Source: Chitinophagaceae bacterium (GTDB lineage: Bacteria; Bacteroidota; Bacteroidia; Chitinophagales; Chitinophagaceae). Taken from it: a stretch of 64,000 nucleotides of DNA. The stretch spans positions 62,001 to 126,000 of the forward strand of contig JAEUVS010000151.1 of the NCBI GenBank assembly GCA_016786745.1, written 5' to 3'. Positions 39,779-64,000 of this stretch are shown one piece after another; position 1 is the first letter of the stretch; each line of letters begins with the position of its first letter. The notes under the pieces were generated by a model, which worked only from the letters and a program-made list of their open reading frames with translations, had not been told where the DNA came from and made no database searches. Position numbers and translations under genes: made by a program.

Positions 39779-42700
39779 TCACGTTCCTGACTCAAGAATA
39801 TTCTTGTCTACATCCTCTTCCGCCTTTCTTTCACTTTCAATCCTCTTCAACTTCTTACCATATGAAATCTTCGTGATCAGCACAAACAACACAGGCACTA
39901 CAAATATTGCCAGGGTTGTAGCGGCAAGCATTCCACCGAACACGGTCCAGCCGATTGTTCTCCTCGACTCCGCAGCGGCGCCCGTTGCGAATGCAAGTGG
40001 AAGCACACCAAAAATAAACGCCAGCGATGTCATAACAATGGGGCGTAACCGAAGCTGAACAGCCTGCAACGTTGCGTGTATCACGTCGATACCCTTGTCA
40101 ACACGTTCCTTGGCAAACTCAACAATAAGAATCGCATTCTTCGCCGACAAACCAATCAACGTAATCAACCCGATCTGTGCATATATATTGTTAGTGAGGG
40201 TCGGAATAAACGTAAGTGTTAATATCGAACCAAACGCACCGATAGGCACCGCAAACAATACCGAGAACGGCACCGACCAGCTTTCGTATAAAGCAGCGAG
40301 GAAAAGAAACACAAATACTATAGATATAGCGAAGATCACCGCCTGCTGGTTACCCGCTTTAATTTCTTCGCGGCTCATACCAGAGAAATCGTATCCATAA
40401 CCCGCCGGAAGCGTTTTAGCCACTTCCTCCAGCGCCTCGATAGCCTGTCCGCTACTATAACCCGGTTTGGGCGAGCCATTGAATTCAACCGAGCGGTAAA
40501 TATTATAATGCGAAATAGCAGCGGGAGCCTCGATAACTTTCGGGGTAATCAGCGAACCGAGCGGCACCATGCTTCCCTGTGAATTTCTCACATAAAATTT
40601 CTCAACACCGGTCAGCGAACTCCTGTAACTGCTATCCGCCTGCGACATCACGCGGAAGTTTCGACCATAAATATTGAAATCATTCACATAACTACTTCCC
40701 AGGTAATTCGACAATGTGGCATACACATCGGAAACCTGTATGCCCAATCTTTTTGCCTTCTCGCGGTCAACGTCAAACTGGTATGTTGGAGTGCGTGCAT
40801 TGAAGAATGTAAACGCCGCACCAATTTCAGGGCGCTGATAAAGTTTAGCCAGGAAGTCTTGCGCAACCTTTTCAAATTGTTTTATATCGTCGGTGCTGGT
40901 AGTTTGCAAAAGCTGGAAGGTAAAGCCTGAAGTTGCACCAAGACCCGGCACCGCAGGGGGTGCAATAACCAGTATGCGCGCCTCTTTGATATCGGCAGTA
41001 GCGGCGCGTATCTTATTCATAACGTCCTGCGCGTGGTGTCCCTCGCCCTGCCTGTCGTCCCACGATTTCAGGTTCACGAATATTGTACCCGCATTTGCTT
41101 TCGTGGAGAAACTCACGATATTCAAACCTGCAAGCCCACCCACCACGCGCGTTTCCGGAATCTTACCGATGCGGGCGATAAGGTCCTGGATCATTGCCAC
41201 ACTTCTTGTGGTAGACGTAGCCTCGGGCATTTCGTAAGTAACGTACACACGGCCCTCATCTTCCGTCGGTATAAATCCTGAAGGTTTGTTTTTGAACAAC
41301 AGAAACAGTGACGCAAACAGTATAACAAGCATCCCCATAACGAGGGGTGTGCGCCTGATCCACCCGGCCACGCCCCTGCCGTATCCAAGCGTAATACGAT
41401 TGAAGCCCCTGTTGAACCCGGCAAAAAACGATTCGAGCCAGTTCTTCTTCTCTGTTTCCTCTTTCGACGGCTTCAGCAATATGGCACAGAGCGCCGGCGT
41501 AAGCGACAACGCAACAAACGCTGAAATAAGTACCGACACCCCGATCGTAATCGCAAATTGCTGGTACAATCTTCCCACGATGCCGGGAATAAATCCTACC
41601 GGGATAAATACCGCGGCGAGAATCAGCGCGATCGCGATTACAGGACCGGATATATCTTTCATCGCCTTCTGGGTGGCCTCCTTCGGCGACAACTTCTCAT
41701 GATCTATGTTGTGCTGCACAGCTTCAACCACAACGATAGCGTCGTCAACCACAATTCCAATCGCCAGTACAAACGCAAATAATGTGAGCGTGTTAATGGT
41801 GAAGCCAAGCGGACCAAATAATATAAATGTTCCAATAAGTGATACAGGTATGGCGAGCACAGGGATGAGTGTAGCCCTCCAGTTTTGAAGGAACAGGAAC
41901 ACAACCAACACCACGAGGCCAAGCGCTTCGAGCAGTGTGATCACTACCTCGTGCATTGATGCTTTTACAACCGAAACAGATTCGAGCGGAACGTTGAAAT
42001 CAATATCCTTCGGAAATGTTTTTTTCATTTCGTTGAGACGTGCCATCAACGCTGTGTAGGTTTCGAGCGCGTTTGCCCCGGGGGCCTGGTAAACGATCAG
42101 GAACGCAGCGGGCCTGTCGCCGGCGAACGCGTTGATCGCGTAGTCGAATTTTCCAAGTTCAACGCGCGCAACATCCTTCAGGTAAACAATGCTTCCGTCG
42201 GAAGGGCGGCTTCGTACCACGATGTTTTCAAACTGCTCCTGTGTGCTGATACGGCTATTGGTAATAACGCTGTATTCAAAGGTCTGCTCCCCGGGTTGCG
42301 GGTTCCCACCAACGGTACCTCCCGCGATCTGCAGATTTTGTTCCTGCAACGCGGCATTCACTTCTGCAGGCGTAATACCCAACGCGGCCATCTTCTCCGG
42401 ATTCAACCAAACACGCATGCTAAAATCGTCGGCGCGCGAATACACGTCGCCCACTCCCTTTACGCGCGTAACCTGGTCCTTCACATACAGGTTCACGAAG
42501 TTCCCGATGAATTTCGCATCGTGGGTTCCATTCGGAGAATAGAACGCCAGCGCCACCATTATACTCGGATTTCTTTTTCTAACTGTAAGGCCTAACCGCT
42601 TTACCTGGTCCGGCAATGTTGGTTCAGCCACGCTCACACGGTTCTGCACATCGAGTGTTGCGATATTAATATCGGTACCCACCTCAAAGTTTACAGTAAT

Positions 42701-42970
42701 ACCCGATTGACCGCTGCTTGTGCTGTTACTCGTCATGTAAGTCATCCCGGGCACTCCATTCACCTGTGTTTCGATGGCGGTAGTTGTGGTTTGTTCAACC
42801 GTTTGTGCATCCGCTCCTATATAGCTTCCCGCGATCTGTACTGTTGGTGGAGATATTTCAGGGTACTGGGCAATGGGAAGATTGAATAAGGAGATCAGCC
42901 CGACCAGCACGATAACAATTGAAATCACAATTGCTGTAACCGGCCGCCTGATAAAAGTATCTGCTATCAT
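39779..42970 (-). CDS. RND efflux transporter, HAE1 (AcrB-like) family
   Basis: This 1063-residue inner-membrane pump exports hydrophobic drugs from the periplasm by proton exchange. It starts MIADTFIRRPVTAIVISIVI, and has the twelve-helix layout with two large periplasmic loops. Helix 4 carries the proton-relay pair in AIGIVVDDAIVVVE. Other typical blocks are PVSLIGTFILFGPLGFTINT, VFIPVGFIPGIVGRLYQQFA and GLSAKNAILIVEFA in helix 10, with the Lys of the relay. It is the last gene of a three-gene operon with adaptor and outer-membrane channel, all on the minus strand with gaps of 9 and 19 bases. Confidence 0.96.
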   Translation of the reverse strand: MIADTFIRRPVTAIVISIVIVLVGLISLFNLPIAQYPEISPPTVQIAGSYIGADAQTVEQTTTTAIETQVNGVPGMTYMTSNSTSSGQSGITVNFEVGTDINIATLDVQNRVSVAEPTLPDQVKRLGLTVRKRNPSIMVALAFYSPNGTHDAKFIGNFVNLYVKDQVTRVKGVGDVYSRADDFSMRVWLNPEKMAALGITPAEVNAALQEQNLQIAGGTVGGNPQPGEQTFEYSVITNSRISTQEQFENIVVRSRPSDGSIVYLKDVARVELGKFDYAINAFAGDRPAAFLIVYQAPGANALETYTALMARLNEMKKTFPKDIDFNVPLESVSVVKASMHEVVITLLEALGLVVLVVFLFLQNWRATLIPVLAIPVSLIGTFILFGPLGFTINTLTLFAFVLAIGIVVDDAIVVVEAVQHNIDHEKLSPKEATQKAMKDISGPVIAIALILAAVFIPVGFIPGIVGRLYQQFAITIGVSVLISAFVALSLTPALCAILLKPSKEETEKKNWLESFFAGFNRGFNRITLGYGRGVAGWIRRTPLVMGMLVILFASLFLLFKNKPSGFIPTEDEGRVYVTYEMPEATSTTRSVAMIQDLIARIGKIPETRVVGGLAGLNIVSFSTKANAGTIFVNLKSWDDRQGEGHHAQDVMNKIRAATADIKEARILVIAPPAVPGLGATSGFTFQLLQTTSTDDIKQFEKVAQDFLAKLYQRPEIGAAFTFFNARTPTYQFDVDREKAKRLGIQVSDVYATLSNYLGSSYVNDFNIYGRNFRVMSQADSSYRSSLTGVEKFYVRNSQGSMVPLGSLITPKVIEAPAAISHYNIYRSVEFNGSPKPGYSSGQAIEALEEVAKTLPAGYGYDFSGMSREEIKAGNQQAVIFAISIVFVFLFLAALYESWSVPFSVLFAVPIGAFGSILTLTFIPTLTNNIYAQIGLITLIGLSAKNAILIVEFAKERVDKGIDVIHATLQAVQLRLRPIVMTSLAFIFGVLPLAFATGAAAESRRTIGWTVFGGMLAATTLAIFVVPVLFVLITKISYGKKLKRIESERKAEEDVDKNILESGT

Positions 42971-56173: not shown

Positions 56174-58546
56174 ATGTTCCGGAACTATCTGAAAGTCGCA
56201 CTGCGCAACATCCTTCGGCATAAAGCTTTTTCGATGATCAATATTGCAGGACTTGCCATCGGCATGACCTGCAGCATTTTTATCCTTCTCTGGGTCCAGA
56301 ACGAACTCAGCTTCGACCGCTTTCACGCAAACGCCGACAAAACTTACAGGATCGTTGCCGAAGCCAGCGGTTTTAAAGCAGCTGTTAATTGTGCGGCGAT
56401 GCCGGCAGAACTAAAAGCGAAGTTTGCCGAAGTGAAAAATACCGTGCGCCTGAGTGTACCGCAAACAGCTATAATGGAAATGGGCGATAAGAAATTCGAT
56501 GAAAAAAGACTTTTCTATGCCGATTCCACCTTCCTGCAGGTTTTTTCATTTCCGCTGGTAAAAGGCGATCGTAAAACAGCACTCACACGACCAGACGCCA
56601 TCCTGATCACCGAAAAAATGGCGCTAAAATATTTTGGCAAAGAAGATCCTATTGGAAAAATTTTAAGGAAAGATGTTCAATATCCATTGATTGTAACAGG
56701 AGTTCTGAAAAATATTCCTTCAAATTCGCATCTTCAGTTCGATTTCATTCAGCCCATGTCGGCAATTGCAAATGTAAACTGGGATTTAAAAAACAACGTT
56801 TGGGATAATTTCAATTACTACACTTACATCGTGATCGACAAGCCACTCGACAAGGCAGGCATCGCAGCGATGAATAAAAAAATTGATGCGTTATATAAAA
56901 CGCATGTCGATCCGAAATCCATCAGTATTGCATTCGATGTTCAACCTCTTGCAGATATCCACCTGCGTTCCTACAACATGCAGGTCGATCTTCCGGGTCA
57001 TGGTAACATTCAATACGTAAATATCTTTTTCATTGTCGCGATCTTTATTCTTGTTGTTGCCTGCATCAACTACATGAATCTTGCAACCGCGCGATCAGCG
57101 CGACGTGCAAAAGAAGTGGGTTTACGCAAAGTAGTGGGCGCCGGAAGAAAACAGTTGATAGGACAGTTCCTCGGCGAATCGCTAATGATATCATTGTTTT
57201 CTCTTGTTGTTGCGCTTGCCGCAGTGTGGTTGCTGTTACCTACCTTCAACTACCTCGCGGGGAAAGAAATTACATTCAACCTCTTACAGGGGAAATGGCT
57301 CGGAGGTATTATTGCAATCGCATTAATTACAGGTTTGTTGTCGGGAAGCTACCCGGCGCTGTTTCTTTCAAACTTCCAGCCGGTGCGCGTTTTAAAGTCT
57401 AACAGATCAACAATAAGTGGCAACAAGCTATTCAGGAATGGCTTGGTGGTTCTTCAATTTGTCGTGTCGATCATTTTGCTCGCAGGAACGGTGGTCATTT
57501 ACCGTCAGTTGAAATTTATAAGGGAAATGAATTTAGGTTTCGATAAATCGAACCTTGTTTACTTCCAGATGAAAGGCAAAATGTGGCAGGACCCGAAAGT
57601 GATGAAAAACGAACTCAGAAAAAATCCACTTACGGCCGACTTCACAATTATGGATGAGTTGCCTATCAACCTTACATCAGGCACCGTTGATGTTAAATGG
57701 CCGGGAAAAGATCCAAACTCACAGGTTGTTTTCCCCATCATGCACGTAAGCGATGAATTTTTTGATGTGATGAATATGACGATACTGAATGGAAGGTCGT
57801 TTTCGGACGACTTTCCCGCCGACACGAACAATTACGTTATCAATGAAAAGGCGGCACGCGTGATGGGTTACAACAAACCCGAAGAAGCCGTAGGAAAACC
57901 TCTGAAACTTTGGGACAGGGACGGAATGGTTATAGGAGTTGTAAAAGATTTCAATTTTAAACCTGTGCAGCAGCCAATAGAACCGATGATACTTGACAAA
58001 CTCAGGTGGGGCGGAACTGTTGTTGTCAGGGCCCCGGCCGGTCGTACAGAGGCCACTATTGCCGCGTTGCAGAAGGTGCACAATACGTTCGCAGCCGAGC
58101 TGCCTTTTAGTTATGATTTTCTTGATCAGAACATCGCGAACCTTTACCAGGGAGAACAGCGCATGGGCGCATTGTTTAACGTGTTTGCCGTGATTGGAAT
58201 CTTTATTTCATGTATGGGCCTGTACGGGTTGTCGGCATTCATGGCTGAGCAGCGTACAAAAGAAATAGGTGTGAGGAAGGTGTTGGGCGCTTCGGTGTTC
58301 AACATGGTGTACATGCTTTCTACCGGGTTTACAAAACTGATTATGGTTGCCGTGGTGATAGCTGTTCCTGTAGCCTGGTGGGCAGTGAATGCCTGGCTGG
58401 ACGGGTTTGCCTTCAGGATAGAAGTAAACTGGGTGATTTTTGTTCTTGCAGCAGTTGCTGCGTTACTTATTGCGTGGATCACCGTAAGCTATGAGTCGGT
58501 GAAGGCCGCCCTGGCGAACCCGGTGAAAAGTTTAAGAAACGAATAG
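56174..58546 (+). CDS. ABC transporter permease (FtsX/MacB type)
   Basis: This 790-residue permease begins MFRNYLKVALRNILRHKAFS and has an N-terminal helix with INIAGLAIGMTCSIFILLWV. A large periplasmic MacB-like domain (about 50-285) follows, then three helices (FtsX block one, with ATARSARRAKEVGLRKVVGA and GAGRKQLIGQFLGESL), a second MacB-like periplasmic domain and a final FtsX block (MAEQRTKEIGVRKVLGAS). The doubled layout is typical of Bacteroidota. No ATPase is adjacent. Its substrate may be a lipoprotein or peptide. Upstream lies 135 bases without a gene. Confidence 0.92.
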   Translation: MFRNYLKVALRNILRHKAFSMINIAGLAIGMTCSIFILLWVQNELSFDRFHANADKTYRIVAEASGFKAAVNCAAMPAELKAKFAEVKNTVRLSVPQTAIMEMGDKKFDEKRLFYADSTFLQVFSFPLVKGDRKTALTRPDAILITEKMALKYFGKEDPIGKILRKDVQYPLIVTGVLKNIPSNSHLQFDFIQPMSAIANVNWDLKNNVWDNFNYYTYIVIDKPLDKAGIAAMNKKIDALYKTHVDPKSISIAFDVQPLADIHLRSYNMQVDLPGHGNIQYVNIFFIVAIFILVVACINYMNLATARSARRAKEVGLRKVVGAGRKQLIGQFLGESLMISLFSLVVALAAVWLLLPTFNYLAGKEITFNLLQGKWLGGIIAIALITGLLSGSYPALFLSNFQPVRVLKSNRSTISGNKLFRNGLVVLQFVVSIILLAGTVVIYRQLKFIREMNLGFDKSNLVYFQMKGKMWQDPKVMKNELRKNPLTADFTIMDELPINLTSGTVDVKWPGKDPNSQVVFPIMHVSDEFFDVMNMTILNGRSFSDDFPADTNNYVINEKAARVMGYNKPEEAVGKPLKLWDRDGMVIGVVKDFNFKPVQQPIEPMILDKLRWGGTVVVRAPAGRTEATIAALQKVHNTFAAELPFSYDFLDQNIANLYQGEQRMGALFNVFAVIGIFISCMGLYGLSAFMAEQRTKEIGVRKVLGASVFNMVYMLSTGFTKLIMVAVVIAVPVAWWAVNAWLDGFAFRIEVNWVIFVLAAVAALLIAWITVSYESVKAALANPVKSLRNE

Positions 58547-58580
58547 CGAGAAGGGAGAGATAAGAGGTGAGAAGAAAAAG

Positions 58581-58653
58581 AGCGGAAGACCGGCCTCGAA
58601 CCGGCCACCCCAACCTTGGGAAGGTTGTGCTCTACCAGATGAGCTACTTCCGC
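58581..58653 (-). tRNA. tRNA-Gly (anticodon CCC)
   Basis: The 73-base sequence on the minus strand folds as a tRNA: acceptor GCGGAAG pairs with CTTCCGC, the D arm reads GCTCATCTGGTAGAGC, the anticodon stem CAACC/GGTTG closes the loop TTCCCAA, and the T arm is CCGGTTCGAGGCCGG. The anticodon CCC reads the Gly codon GGG. CCA is not encoded. A T-rich run (TTTTTCTTCTC) follows and can end transcription. Confidence 0.95.
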
Positions 58654-58681: not shown

Positions 58682-60031
58682 TTACATCTTCATCAACGAC
58701 GGATACAAACGAATATATACCTGGTAACTCATCGGGTTCCTGCCATAAATATTATTTAAAACAGAGGGAGCGCTATAAATGCTCCATTGTGCGCCCGCGG
58801 CCACCCTGATTTTTCCAATATTAAAGAGGTCGAAATTATCACCAACAGTAAAAGCGTGAACAGGAAAAACCTCGTGCTCATCAAACTCTTCATCCAGCAC
58901 CAACTCTTCAGCCGACTTCTGCGTCCATTCATACCGCGCATACAGCGAGTTGCGCGATTTCCGCCAGGCCCCCTCAACAAGAATAGCATTCTCCCCATCA
59001 TGGTTCTTCTTTTTATTCATGCCCCATAGTGCCGTCGCGTTAATGATATTTTCATCACCCATATCCACGCTATAGATCGCAGACGCCGTTGTTTTGTGAA
59101 CATTATCACCTGCATGTGCCGCTTCCGGACTTTTCAAAAAACCATGTGAAACCTGCAATGCAAGGTTCCGGTTTGGGTTATAAGAAAACCTTCCACTCCA
59201 TGAATCAAAACGCGGCTTATCGAAACTATACCTGTTTTCATTCGGCTCGCGTCCTGTAAAAACAGAACCTTCCAGTTTCGTCTTCCCCAGTCTCACTCCA
59301 CCTGTAACCACTCCGAAAGTGATATGCGTGGCATCAACCCAATGATGAGATATAGGAGAATTTGGATTATCGAGCGCCGAGGGGCGATGCATGAAGGTAA
59401 CGGGACCAAGCGCAGGTTCACCCGGATAACCTACATAAATGAAAGCATCAGTTTTGGGAGAAAACGCGTGCGCATAACTAACAGAAAGTTCCGAAAACAA
59501 ATCATGCGGATGCTGCCTGTCGACCAGCGGAATATTGTTATAGGTTTCACCTGATTGATACAACAAGGGGTAACCTCGTTTACCCTGTGTTAAAGGATCA
59601 AGCGAAACCATTGCGTTAAAATGAAACAAACCTTTCTTCTTCACTTTCCTTTGTCCCATCAGCATGAACCAATTCGGTGCATCAAAATCATTATCACCGC
59701 GTACACCCTTGTTGCTAAAATCCTGGTTATTGTATCGTAGAAATATGCTGCCATGCATCATGAACATCCAATCTTTTTGATGTGTCATATATCCATACAT
59801 CGGCGACGCATCAGGCAGCCAACCCGTCCCGGAACCATTCCGGTTCATAGGCAGGCTTAGAGAGAACGCATGACTCATCGAAGGCATTTCCGAATCACCA
59901 TGATGGTCGTGCATTGGTTTTAACGTGTCCTTTTTCTCCTCATGATGATGCTCATACTGAGAAAACGATTTCAAAACAGGTACAACCAATACCGTCGTAA
60001 TAAAAATAACTTTAAAAATAACTTTCTTCAT
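58682..60031 (-). CDS. Outer-membrane protein with His-rich N-terminus (metal-linked)
   Basis: This 449-residue product has a signal peptide (KVIFITTVLVVPVLKSFSQ) and a His-rich start of the mature part (YEHHHEEKKDTLKPMHDHHGD). The rest is strand-rich with Met/His motifs (MSHAFSLSLPMNRNGSGTGW, MTHQKDWMFMMHGSIFLRYN, DRQHPHDLFSELSVSYAHAF) and ends QVYIRLYPSLMKM. Proteins of this type are found next to copper and heavy-metal genes in Bacteroidota and are likely outer-membrane barrels. The gene starts in a TGATG overlap with the HMA-MauE gene, so both are coupled. Metal binding is inferred from the His/Met content and the neighbour. Confidence 0.75.
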   Translation of the reverse strand: MKKVIFKVIFITTVLVVPVLKSFSQYEHHHEEKKDTLKPMHDHHGDSEMPSMSHAFSLSLPMNRNGSGTGWLPDASPMYGYMTHQKDWMFMMHGSIFLRYNNQDFSNKGVRGDNDFDAPNWFMLMGQRKVKKKGLFHFNAMVSLDPLTQGKRGYPLLYQSGETYNNIPLVDRQHPHDLFSELSVSYAHAFSPKTDAFIYVGYPGEPALGPVTFMHRPSALDNPNSPISHHWVDATHITFGVVTGGVRLGKTKLEGSVFTGREPNENRYSFDKPRFDSWSGRFSYNPNRNLALQVSHGFLKSPEAAHAGDNVHKTTASAIYSVDMGDENIINATALWGMNKKKNHDGENAILVEGAWRKSRNSLYARYEWTQKSAEELVLDEEFDEHEVFPVHAFTVGDNFDLFNIGKIRVAAGAQWSIYSAPSVLNNIYGRNPMSYQVYIRLYPSLMKM

Positions 60032-60774
60032 CAGCTTAAAATTTTCACCACCGTTGTTCCGCTCATGCCAATCATTAATGCGTCTTCAATTATCGTTACC
60101 GTGCTCATTGGCAGGTTAAATACAGCGCCAAGGCAGGCACATTGAATTTTCATTTTGTTCAAAACACTTTGCAATACACCGATGATACTCACTCCCATCA
60201 CTACAAACGTTACAGCATTCGTGAGCAGCGGATTGAATCCTGTTAAGAACGCTATGCCCAACCCAAGTTCAATAAACGCATACAGGTATGCCCATGGCCG
60301 CCAACGTTTCGCAATGATGTCATAGGCAGAATAGCTGTCCGCAAATCCATCCAGATCCATCAGCTTGAAAAATGAAAACACCAGAAAAAATCCTGCCATG
60401 AAATGTTCCATCCATCGCGATGCATCAAATCCGCCGTTAATCGCTTCGACCAACACGGTAATACCGGTTATATAGGCAAAAATCAGAAGAATCGGCTTGT
60501 AAGCCTGGAACCATGTCCGCGTTTCTTCCCGCGGCATACTCTTAACAACATCATGATGAATGCTCCCATTTTCAGAAAGTTGGTATTCCGGGTAATCCTT
60601 CAAAGCATTTTTAAGCACAGGTGTTCCGATATGCTTGTTCATTTCGATAGTTGCCGTTCCAGTGGGAAGGTTTATACTTACGTTTTTAACACCTTCCACT
60701 TTCGACAAAAGCGACTGCACCTTCGCCTGGCAACCCGCACAGGTCATCCCTGAAACGTGATAAGTTTGTGTCAT
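60031..60774 (-). CDS. HMA metal-binding domain fused to MauE/DoxX-like membrane domain
   Basis: The 247 residues start with an HMA domain (1-65) with the Cu-binding motif GMTCAGCQAKV. After a linker, four membrane helices of a MauE/DoxX-like domain follow (about 95-245), with a CxC pair in KMKIQCACLGAVFNLPMSTV after the third helix. The CxC and the surrounding CACLG block resemble redox-associated MauE-type proteins. A role in copper or other thiophilic metal handling in the inner membrane is inferred. It ends in TGATG, sharing one base with the outer-membrane gene, so the pair is made together. Confidence 0.85.
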   Translation of the reverse strand: MTQTYHVSGMTCAGCQAKVQSLLSKVEGVKNVSINLPTGTATIEMNKHIGTPVLKNALKDYPEYQLSENGSIHHDVVKSMPREETRTWFQAYKPILLIFAYITGITVLVEAINGGFDASRWMEHFMAGFFLVFSFFKLMDLDGFADSYSAYDIIAKRWRPWAYLYAFIELGLGIAFLTGFNPLLTNAVTFVVMGVSIIGVLQSVLNKMKIQCACLGAVFNLPMSTVTIIEDALMIGMSGTTVVKILS

Positions 60775-60860
60775 AACCGTAACCTTTATAATACAAAGTT
60801 ACCCAGGGCCTCAGCCATGATTGTTACACAATTAAGGGAATGATTTATATAACTTTTGGA

Positions 60861-62786
60861 TTACCCCTGTATGGTTGAAATATTCTTTTTCAGCTCCCAG
60901 TAGCGGGGATCATTTTTCAACGCTTCAAATGCGGGGTATTCAAGAAAGAAGTTAACCGGGGCAGCACGTCGTTCGCGACACCGCCCGATATGATAAAAAA
61001 CTTTGTCGTAGTTGCCGAGAGCGAACCAGATACCGACAAGATCACCGTCAAGAACCACATCAGGTTCCGCGCGTTGCCACTCTTCAATTTTCTGCACACA
61101 TTCCATCGCGTCATCGCGCTTGCCGAGACTTGCCAGGCAATATCCCAGGCCCATTAGTCCTTTAAGCGGATGGTTCGTAAGCCGGTGTACTTCCCGGAAC
61201 AATGGCAGCGCTGCTTCCCAATCGCCTCCCATGCCTATTGCCCATGCTTTTAATTCGAGGCTCGCACGCATGTTGGGATTTATCTCAAGATTTTTTTCTG
61301 CCTGCGCTATGGCCTCTTCGTACTGCTCGGTAAACATGTACATATTTCCCAAAGCATGATTAATCCCGGCATTGAGCGGGTCAATCTTTGCCGCTTCTTC
61401 AAGCGCTCTTACGGCGTCGCGTTTTTGTCCTACGGCGATATAATAAAAGCCAAGCATTTTATAAGCAGATACGGCACCCGGATTTAACCCGATAGCGCGT
61501 TGCAGAGCCGCATACGCTTCCTTCCATTTCCAGTCGTGGTACAATAAACGGCTAGCCCGCGCAACATGCGCCTCCGCTATTGTATCATCGAGCTGCAACG
61601 CTCTGTCGGAATATTCCTTTACTAAATCAAAAGCTTTAGGCGGCGACATTTGCCCGGTCGACCCGAGGTATGCATATGTTTCAGCAATCACCGCATACAC
61701 AAGCGCATAATTTTGATCGAGTCTTATGGCCTGTTCAAAATAATTTATCGCTGTTTTCGCGTCGCCGGGAGTATATCGATTGAGATAATGAAGACCTTTT
61801 AAATAATTCGTATATGCTTCAATGTTATGAGATGCAGGTTTTACTGTTTGAATCTTTGCAGGCTTTGCAAGATTTTCTTTTAACCGGGTCGCGATGATAC
61901 CGCTGATTTCATCCTGCACCTCGAATATATCAGTGAGGTTGCGGTCGTAGTTTTCACTCCATATATGATAGCCATCGGCGGCATTGATCAGCTGCGCGGT
62001 AATACGCACACGGTTGCCGCTTTTTCGTACGCTCCCTTCCAGGATTTTGTCGACGTTTAGTTTAACCGCGATATCCCTGATGTCGTCATTTTTACCTTTG
62101 AATGCAAAGGCAGATGTACGCGATGTTACCTGCAAACCGTCTACTTTTGTCAGTGAATTCAGCAATTCTTCGGTGATGCCATCGCTGAAGTACTCGTTTT
62201 CAGGATCGGCGCTCATGTTTACGAACGGTAGCACAGCGAGCCGGTTAGCCGGCGGTTTTGTTTTTCCCTTGATAGCGTTGCGCGATGGTACCACAATGCC
62301 ACTATTGTTAATGGCATAAACTCTTGCCGGCTGTTTAATATTCTTCAGCTCAAAATATCCGAGTTCGATGGCGCTGATGCCTTCCTGGTTCTTAATCTCG
62401 TCGTACACTTTTTCAGAAACGAGAATGCTGCCCGGCAGAGCGAGTGATTCGATGCGTGACGCGAAATTTACACCATCGCCGTAGATGTTTGCGTCGTCGA
62501 TGATAACATCGCCGGTATGAATGCCGATTCTTACATCAACCTTAGGCGCTTTCAACAGCTCCTGCTGAATATACAGGGCGCTGTTCACCGCTTCGATCGC
62601 GCTGTTGAAAATACTGAGGGAGCCATCTCCATAAAATTGCAACGTGGTACCGTTGAAATTCTTAATTCCGTGGTCGAGAGCGTCTTTAAGCTGACGTCGT
62701 TTCTCCCGTGCAAGCTGCTCGTTTTCCTGCATGAGTGCAGTATAGCCTGTCATATCCGCGAATAATATTGCAACGAGCCGGCGCAT
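60861..62786 (-). CDS. Class III nucleotide cyclase with TolB-like and TPR domains
   Basis: This 641-residue protein has an N-terminal class III cyclase domain (1-165), a FlgO/TolB-like segment (185-310, starting NRLAVLPFVNMSADPENEYF) and at least eight TPR repeats (335-635). The metal Asp residues are Asp11 (LFADMTGYT) and Asp54 (FYGDGSLSIF). The transition-state Asn and Arg are in GDGVNFASRIE. The base-selecting Lys before GDG is Gln50, so substrate choice is not predictable by the usual rule. There is no signal peptide, so it should be in the cytoplasm. It stands alone, with 74 bases to the VOC gene upstream. Confidence 0.87.
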   Translation of the reverse strand: MRRLVAILFADMTGYTALMQENEQLAREKRRQLKDALDHGIKNFNGTTLQFYGDGSLSIFNSAIEAVNSALYIQQELLKAPKVDVRIGIHTGDVIIDDANIYGDGVNFASRIESLALPGSILVSEKVYDEIKNQEGISAIELGYFELKNIKQPARVYAINNSGIVVPSRNAIKGKTKPPANRLAVLPFVNMSADPENEYFSDGITEELLNSLTKVDGLQVTSRTSAFAFKGKNDDIRDIAVKLNVDKILEGSVRKSGNRVRITAQLINAADGYHIWSENYDRNLTDIFEVQDEISGIIATRLKENLAKPAKIQTVKPASHNIEAYTNYLKGLHYLNRYTPGDAKTAINYFEQAIRLDQNYALVYAVIAETYAYLGSTGQMSPPKAFDLVKEYSDRALQLDDTIAEAHVARASRLLYHDWKWKEAYAALQRAIGLNPGAVSAYKMLGFYYIAVGQKRDAVRALEEAAKIDPLNAGINHALGNMYMFTEQYEEAIAQAEKNLEINPNMRASLELKAWAIGMGGDWEAALPLFREVHRLTNHPLKGLMGLGYCLASLGKRDDAMECVQKIEEWQRAEPDVVLDGDLVGIWFALGNYDKVFYHIGRCRERRAAPVNFFLEYPAFEALKNDPRYWELKKNISTIQG

Positions 62787-63361: not shown

Positions 63362-63675
63362 ATGATACGATTTATTTTTCTCCTTTCGATGATAGCGTTT
63401 AATTTTTCAACATTCTCTCAACAAACCTGGAACGGAAAGAAATGCGCTGTGGTGCTGACTTACGACGATGGCCTTTCCGTACATCTCACGAACGCAATAC
63501 CAGCGCAATCAGGTTACTTGTATTTTTATTCCATGGCGTCGGCGGAGGTCATTCGATGGATGTGTCACTCGATGCGCACAGTAAGTTGTTGCATTACCTG
63601 GAACAAAACGACAAAAATATCTGGAACGCCACCATGCTCGATGTCGCGAAATTCGCCATCAATAAACGACGTTAG
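63362..63675 (+). pseudogene. Polysaccharide deacetylase remnant with deletion and frameshift
   Basis: The start encodes a signal peptide (MIRFIFLLSMIAFNFSTFSQ) and the NodB opening, KKCAVVLTYDDGLSVHLTNA, with the metal-binding Asp pair. Near 63500 the reading frame breaks, and a second frame gives the family C-terminus: LVFLFHGVGGGHSMDVSLD then HYLEQNDKNIWNATMLDVAK and a stop at 63675. Intact relatives have about 260-290 residues; here about 105 codons remain, so roughly 150 residues with the His metal ligands are missing. The continuing first frame gives 112 residues without sense after the junction. It is a non-functional gene. Confidence 0.82.
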
Positions 63676-64000
63676 AACAATTTTTCCTGCGGCGGCGTAA
63701 TGCCTGCAAGACGCAGGTATACCGTTGTTTGTCCTCGATGATGCGTTTGATGTTCAAATAACTTAGCTATCGCGACGCCCTTAGGCATGTCGAACCGGCC
63801 AAACAATTTCACGTTTTCGTTCAACTGGGCGGGAGTAAGTTTTTTGACACTGTTGATTACAAAATCGTAGCCAGCGAGGGTCAGTTTCGTGACATTCGCT
63901 TTTGATTTATCAGTGCTTTTTTCGGAATCACCAAAGTTGATTGGACTTTTTTCTCCAGTGATAGCTGATGCGAATCCGTAGTTAGCATCGGTGAGGTGAA
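63672..64000 (-). CDS. DinB-family protein (C-terminal part, cut by window end)
   Basis: An open minus-strand frame enters from the right edge and runs to a stop at 63672-63674. The 108 visible residues start HLTDANYGFASAITGE and include KLTLAGYDFVINSVKKLTP and the metal-binding block LFEHQTHHRGQTTVYLRLAG, which is typical of DinB/YfiT four-helix proteins with His ligands. These are stress-associated metal-dependent thiol or transferase-like enzymes. Its end overlaps the end of the deacetylase remnant. Confidence 0.85.
   Translation of the reverse strand, partial: HLTDANYGFASAITGEKSPINFGDSEKSTDKSKANVTKLTLAGYDFVINSVKKLTPAQLNENVKLFGRFDMPKGVAIAKLFEHQTHHRGQTTVYLRLAGITPPQEKLF

Follow-up and report, generated by a model that had tools for sequence, protein, structure and literature searches.

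The HMA-MauE gene and its overlapping partner

The locus described here lies on the minus strand near the end of the window, a term used for the whole 64,000-nucleotide stretch of DNA that was analyzed. It consists of two overlapping genes. Gene 1 encodes an HMA domain fused to a MauE-type membrane domain, and gene 2 encodes a predicted outer-membrane beta-barrel protein. The features of the locus are listed below, with the basis of each in parentheses.

60794..60801, minus strand: TAACTTTG, upstream of gene 1 (sequence)
60031..60774, minus strand: gene 1, HMA-MauE fusion protein, 247 aa (open reading frame; HMA and MauE above Pfam cut-offs)
60565..60774, minus strand: HMA domain, residues 1-70 (Pfam and structure comparison)
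60730-60741, minus strand: CxxC of gene 1, C12 and C15 (sequence and alignment)
60052..60411, minus strand: MauE domain, residues 122-241 (Pfam PF07291)
60133..60141, minus strand: CxC, C212-A-C214, in the loop before the last helix (invariant in the 40 rows of alignment A3)
60064..60087, minus strand: E230-xxx-M234-xx-M237, in the last helix (comparison of HMA-MauE and other MauE domains)
60029..60033, minus strand: TGATG, in which gene 1 stops and gene 2 starts (sequence)
58682..60031, minus strand: gene 2, predicted outer-membrane beta-barrel protein, 449 aa (open reading frame and model; no Pfam or NCBIfam family)
59960..60031, minus strand: predicted signal peptide, residues 1-24 (model helix 2-21 and sequence; the end point is our own reading)
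59846..59959, minus strand: disordered tail, residues 25-62, rich in His (seven) and Met (four) (counts and model)
58700..59794, minus strand: porin-like beta-barrel, residues 80-444 (model compared with 5nxn_A)

The two reading frames, the HMA-MauE fusion and the TGATG overlap had been put forward in a preliminary description of this DNA, and coordinates, sequence and Pfam comparisons agree on all three. Short gene overlaps are common in operons, and the case for a pairing beyond chance is made by comparison with other genomes, not by the overlap alone. The octamer TAACTTTG fits the consensus of the Bacteroidota -7 box and is a candidate for one. A palindrome upstream of gene 1, TTGTGTAACAA, was considered as an operator and rejected, as it occurred in none of 66 other upstream regions (those of 65 AraC-type genes and of the AraC relative on contig C5; four of the regions were shorter than 100 bases).

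In the window, neither a copper gene nor an AraC-type regulator adjoins the pair, and the same is true of P-type ATPases and heavy-metal RND pumps. The nearest RND permease (39779-42970) is of the multidrug type, scoring 1276.7 bits against a cut-off of 1250, and falls far below the cut-off of the CusA/CzcA model (350.8 against 701.45). A tRNA-Gly gene (58580-58653) lies beyond gene 2, with its 5′ end close to the 3′ end of that gene. GC content at this locus is not odd and, with regard to a recent insertion at the tRNA, no comparable site was found in the same-genus genomes (n = 3). Upstream of gene 1, at a distance of 86 bases and on the same strand, is a gene for a protein with a guanylate-cyclase-type catalytic domain and TPR repeats (60861-62786). 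A close relative, 68% identical, was found in one of the three same-genus genomes (G368), with no tRNA or pair adjoining. The same genome carries a long tandem array of FtsX/MacB-type permease genes (G368:C116:18964-65531) related to window positions 56174-58546. Near the window edge, a short reading frame (63362-63700) has a start resembling that of a secreted polysaccharide deacetylase; it has no Pfam match above cut-off and is possibly a broken gene.

The HMA domain of gene 1 (PF00403, residues 4-45) scored 51.5 bits against a gathering score of 24.8, and the MauE domain scored 52.8 bits against 27. The membrane domain had been called MauE/DoxX-like; the MauE part of that label holds, whereas DoxX (PF07681), at 23.3 bits, remains just below its gathering score of 23.6. 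The NCBIfam models nearest to the HMA head are those of two CopZ chaperones (NF033795, 37.6 against a cut-off of 91; NF047957, 38.2 against 85) and of the MerTP fusion (NF033556, 36.3 against 180, HMA part only), all far below their cut-offs. Residues 1-69 of the structure model have HMA domains of copper chaperones and ATPases as their best matches, led by 4a48_B (Z 11.5, rmsd 1.8, 68 aligned); almost only HMA matches were listed, and the fold of the membrane half was barely probed by this comparison. The CxxC head and CxC membrane pair of the preliminary description are C12/C15 and C212/C214, respectively. Across the gene 1 family, loops 2 and 4 carry about three K/R each and loops 1 and 3 about 0.1-0.2, an analysis that, like that of tail composition below, covered 42 of 80 loci, the others having short flanks. 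By the positive-inside rule, this charge bias points to a cytosolic location for both the HMA head and the CxC.

The His-rich start ascribed to the gene 2 protein is present, with HHH at residues 28-30 and HDHH at 41-44. Model confidence is moderate overall (mean pLDDT 69.5, pTM 0.73), with pLDDT <50 over residues 16-69. A porin barrel fold is predicted, the barrel aligning with the general porin 5nxn_A at Z 21.7 and rmsd 3.9 over 305 residues with 8% identity, and a shared porin fold does not show function. Comparison with Pfam (at E 0.1) and NCBIfam assigned the protein to no family, and hence to neither a porin nor a CopB family; the A2 profile of its family had no PDB sequence match at E 1. 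The A2 alignment (45 sequences) has 54 invariant columns, among them H93, H174, H176, H215, H229, H230 and H236, as well as M62, M91, M123, M141, E162, E205, E262 and E265. Under the locus restriction given above, the median His+Met content of the family was 31% in the tail versus 7.5% in the barrel, and the tail was the higher in all 78 proteins measured. With regard to both genes, the structure models support the earlier assignment of one inner-membrane and one outer-membrane component.

Pairing and copper neighborhoods in other genomes

Co-occurrence in other genomes had been proposed as a check on the pair. In a sample of 244 genomes of the same bacterial family, the barrel gene was found in 59, HMA-MauE in 47 and both in 22, and in every one of these 22 the two lie side by side on one contig and one strand, HMA-MauE leading. 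The set of 47 includes two partial or interrupted genes (G476 and G517) and excludes G333, where the match, within an 839-aa frame, was confined to the HMA part; G280, where a 136-aa protein grouped with HMA-MauE adjoins the barrel gene, was counted as lacking HMA-MauE. The partner was absent from 37 of the 59 barrel-carrying and 25 of the 47 HMA-MauE-carrying genomes and, therefore, neither gene strictly needs the other. Intergenic distances in the 22 pairs were estimated at ~0 to ~530 bases from uncurated starts. Only the window pair clearly overlaps, so the tight coupling is a local feature.

A wider sample of 296 Bacteroidota genomes yielded the barrel gene in nine, HMA-MauE in 18 (counting genomes with a match that reaches the MauE part, as the 253 of the raw tally were mostly HMA-only) and both in five, two of which (G214 and G261) have the genes apart. 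Fisher values for co-occurrence were 1.2e-4 and 5.1e-5, both of them inflated by ignoring kinship. A tree of 78 barrel proteins has 29 rows labelled as paired, among them two Sphingobium plasmids in which a glutaredoxin-MauE gene lies as many as three genes upstream. The paired label requires at least 14 changes versus ~24 for shuffled labels, and at least eight of the 14 are forced by starred branches. As read from this tree, pairs have formed or come apart repeatedly, and paired proteins cluster beyond chance. The barrel protein of the window sits among mostly unpaired relatives. An Actinomycetota-labelled contig with the pair (L061, in a record titled Williamsia sp. isolate E01) falls within the Bacteroidota part of the tree and is probably a mis-binned metagenome contig.

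Neighboring genes, whose families were named from one or two representatives per group, are rich in copper functions. Among the paired loci fetched (n = 20), an AraC-type gene is near in 19, typically directly before HMA-MauE, and the same regulator is near in 18 of 20 fetched HMA-MauE loci without an adjoining barrel gene. Loci of the latter kind typically continue downstream with a small HYCM-type protein, periplasmic HMA and HMBD proteins, DUF3347 and CusA halves, or with a multicopper oxidase. Many barrel-only loci have copper P-type ATPases, Csp1-like proteins, HMA proteins or TonB receptors. A stand-alone 70-74-aa HMA protein directly precedes the barrel gene in L194, L197 and L198, and the order in L187 is regulator, HMA-bearing ATPase, barrel. 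In 42 barrel loci, any copper-type marker occurred within 2 kb in 26 and at 4-6 kb in one; once the AraC regulator, HYCM protein and HMA-MauE are dropped to leave a strict marker set, the counts were ten and one. These 42 are the loci, out of 80 non-redundant ones, with 6 kb on both sides, and most of the fetched paired loci are thereby left out. The AraC-type regulator has an M[VI]CxxC motif in 56 of 65 copies, and we read this head as HMA-like from the motif; Pfam gave a helix-turn-helix only.

In several of these relatives, the CusA/CzcA permease is split into reading frames of 429 and 641 aa that lie two bases apart (L159 8507-11724 and L175 1213-4430), with matches to TIGR00914 positions 1-427 in L175 and 422-1043 in L159. 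The same lengths recur in L163, L165, L166 and L176. This is perhaps a split gene or programmed frameshift common to several genomes, not a single error.

The genome of the window encodes further machinery for copper or heavy metals elsewhere. Two P-type ATPases score above the copper-family cut-off (contigs C28 and C150) and two CusA/CzcA permeases above theirs (C114 and C134). Adjoining a permease on C114 is a heavy-metal P-type ATPase gene interrupted by one TGA and one TAA (G000:C114:10693-12352). The preliminary description had the pair standing without a P-type ATPase or RND pump, which is accurate for its immediate surroundings; relatives of either gene do adjoin such pumps, and this genome has them on other contigs. 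The only close relative of the AraC-type cassette regulator in the genome, with 51% identity to the query used, is on contig C5 and shares 71-74% identity with the regulators located ahead of HMA-MauE in relatives. It is an orphan gene with an N-terminal MVCxRC motif (G000:C5:36796-37353; L202 7796-8353), and no metal genes were recognized around it.

A membrane motif shared with plasmid relatives

The membrane part of gene 1 carries a second conserved feature after its CxC. The pattern CAC-x15-E-xxx-M-xx-M is present in all 47 distinct HMA-MauE proteins, and E-xxx-M-xx-M occurs in none of 27 aligned MauE domains from other Bacteroidota proteins (29 were chosen, and L246 and L258 were excluded as misaligned). 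Positions 234 and 237 are never both Met in the 27, and E is absent from position 230; the CxC, K137 and E169 are common to gene 1 and all of them. A CxC with a Met pair is reminiscent of the membrane sites of copper ATPases, and Met ligands favor Cu(I)/Ag(I).

A search with the HMA-MauE protein of the window matched 286 plasmid records, four of them over ≥80% of the query length, and most of the matches listed are annotated as glutaredoxin. In these relatives from plasmids of Pseudomonadota and Cyanobacteria, a glutaredoxin head replaces the HMA domain, and the proteins are annotated either "glutaredoxin" or "MauE/DoxX family redox-associated membrane protein". Six of eight plasmid regions read (Bernardetia, Halomonas, Glaciecola, Gloeocapsa, Blastomonas and Roseovarius) contain overt copper or heavy-metal resistance genes; none was seen in the Rhizobium and Agrobacterium regions, the latter of which has DUF305. 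In one of the eight regions, MauE is encoded separately and adjoins an HMA gene. The Halomonas and Glaciecola regions have CopB ahead of glutaredoxin-MauE on one strand, separated by one gene and four genes, respectively, an arrangement that reads as a similar pairing with a different barrel.

Three plasmid copies of the barrel itself were found. Two Sphingobium plasmids combine it with a MerR regulator, glutaredoxin-MauE and DUF305, and one of them has a P-type ATPase further along. Their glutaredoxin-MauE proteins have 20-23% overall identity to the HMA-MauE of the window. The E-xxx-M-xx-M motif follows CAC in both of these and in seven of the eight plasmid-region proteins, the Glaciecola protein (L225) lacking the second Met, so that nine of ten glutaredoxin-fused or split plasmid relatives possess it. 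On this alignment, the two-Met form of E-xxx-M-xx-M is confined to the HMA/glutaredoxin clade among the MauE proteins compared.

Probable copper handling, alternatives and known systems

The suggestion of metal handling is borne out by the copper-gene neighborhoods of relatives, and it is because of these neighborhoods, an association, that copper is the likely metal. The pair can with good confidence be regarded as a copper-handling module. Our overall explanation, to which we give a probability of roughly 0.6, is that it constitutes an accessory module for tolerance to copper and possibly silver. Gene 1 would reside in the inner membrane, its cytosolic HMA head binding Cu(I) via CxxC and exchanging it with a membrane site formed by CxC and E-xxx-M-xx-M. 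Gene 2 would be a porin-like outer-membrane channel whose periplasmic His/Met tail collects copper in the manner proposed for the tail of PcoB. Together, the two may move or buffer copper across the envelope beside the copper ATPases and CusA-type pumps encoded elsewhere. The architecture of the genes, their conserved pairing, the copper neighborhoods of relatives, the specific motif, the charge bias and the barrel model are findings of the analysis; we infer the metal, its oxidation state, membrane insertion, the direction of export and physical cooperation of the two proteins.

Outward transfer of metal by this exact route is a tentative proposal, and we put it at well under an even chance. 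An HMA head and CxC on the same side do not by themselves make a transport path and, to our knowledge, MauE is not an established transporter. The two-part metal route originally envisaged is thus upheld as to metal handling and pairing; it is not supported as a continuous route, given that HMA and CxC appear to share a side and that the partner is often absent.

The same membrane site could serve electrons. A role of this kind towards MauD has been ascribed to MauE, and the MauE part of gene 1 might pass electrons across the inner membrane via its CxC, the HMA or glutaredoxin head acting as its thiol partner in the cytosol. Such a relay would keep periplasmic copper proteins, or copper itself, in the right redox state, and the barrel would only pass copper. 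The occurrence of CxC in all 27 aligned MauE domains outside the HMA-MauE group is in keeping with this, as is the substitution of glutaredoxin for HMA on plasmids. We nevertheless consider a relay unlikely, since the clade-specific E-xxx-M-xx-M is more easily explained by a soft-metal site than by thiol chemistry alone and HMA domains are metal carriers. A further point in favor of a relay is that GigT, a loosely DoxX-related protein, has been proposed to oxidize periplasmic Cu(I) (PMC10304878).

A second alternative reverses the direction of flow. By analogy with MerP/MerT, or with PcoB as an importer, the barrel could admit copper and HMA-MauE bring it into the cytosol, where it would be supplied, sensed or sequestered. 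The placement of both cysteine sites on the cytosolic side by charge bias would suit uptake, and the nearest NCBIfam models to the HMA head, far below cut-off as they are, belong to CopZ and MerTP. In addition, E. coli PcoB alone sensitizes cells and was read as an importer (PMC9210255). The neighbors of relatives are defense genes (efflux ATPase, CusA, oxidase and storage), however, and uptake is accordingly judged quite improbable. Least probable of all is a role in other or broader metals (Zn, Cd, Hg, Ag or Au), with the copper genes as bystanders of mobile resistance islands: the barrel is patchy (nine of 296 Bacteroidota genomes) and has its plasmid copies, and HMA domains also serve Zn, Cd and Hg, but copper-specific labels recur (TIGR01511 copper ATPase, Csp1, multicopper oxidase, CueR and CopA/B/C) and the Met ligands point to Cu(I)/Ag(I).

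Returning to copper tolerance as the preferred reading, the pair is recurrent and probably belongs to the copper-tolerance repertoire of Bacteroidota, in which such tolerance is far less studied than in Pseudomonadota. A broader and more speculative idea, which we regard as doubtful, unites HMA-MauE and glutaredoxin-MauE in a single, as yet undescribed class of Cu(I)/Ag(I) carriers or reductases in the inner membrane. Their cytosolic thiol head would be interchangeable and would feed a membrane site made up of CxC and E-xxx-M-xx-M, and in Bacteroidota this class would work with an undescribed family of copper porins in place of the CopB/PcoB of Pseudomonadota.

Known systems resemble the pair in part. 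MerT/MerP and MerTP fusions combine a soft-metal HMA domain with a small membrane protein, as gene 1 does; the gene 1 match to the MerTP model is weak and confined to the HMA part. Relative to the MauE/DoxX family (PF07291 and PF07681), gene 1 adds the HMA head and E-xxx-M-xx-M. The glutaredoxin-MauE proteins of copper plasmids share with it a MauE domain with CAC and E-xxx-M-xx-M and a copper-gene setting, and differ in having a glutaredoxin-like thiol head. The copper cassette of Bacteroidota relatives has an AraC-type regulator beside HMA-MauE, which the window pair lacks. The copper- and gold-induced Gig operon of Cupriavidus also encodes a small DoxX-related membrane protein, GigT, with other partners (GigP, GigA and GigB), and the available text describes neither an HMA head nor a barrel (PMC10304878).

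Among outer-membrane proteins, PcoB/CopB is the closest analogue of gene 2. These proteins likewise have a signal peptide, a poorly conserved, disordered His/Met-rich tail and then a barrel, and are encoded in copper loci (PMC12509749; PMC9210255); CopB itself accompanies glutaredoxin-MauE in the Halomonas and Glaciecola regions. Gene 2 differs in that it has no Pfam match at all and so none to CopB. General porins have 16 strands. The gene 2 model, of moderate confidence, aligns best with these porins; PcoB is not among the matches listed, which does not count against a PcoB-like barrel. PcoB has 12 strands (PMC9210255). In Caulobacter PcoB, replacement of the tail His or Met residues raises cell copper (PMC12509749) and, set against the importer reading of E. 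coli PcoB, this leaves the direction of transport disputed even for the closest analogue.

In sum, the pair is a known domain combination joined to an unnamed porin-like family, and its mechanism is a proposal. Among the titles listed by literature searches of open-license PMC articles, none concerns such a protein, and these searches yielded no description of an HMA-MauE/barrel pair. The locus thus offers two unnamed components with residues open to testing: a barrel family that neither Pfam nor NCBIfam models, and a membrane motif by which the MauE clade linked to copper differs from the other MauE proteins compared. If this motif is a metal site, the clade would represent a kind of small copper carrier that differs from P-type ATPases and RND pumps and has representatives in several phyla and on numerous plasmids.
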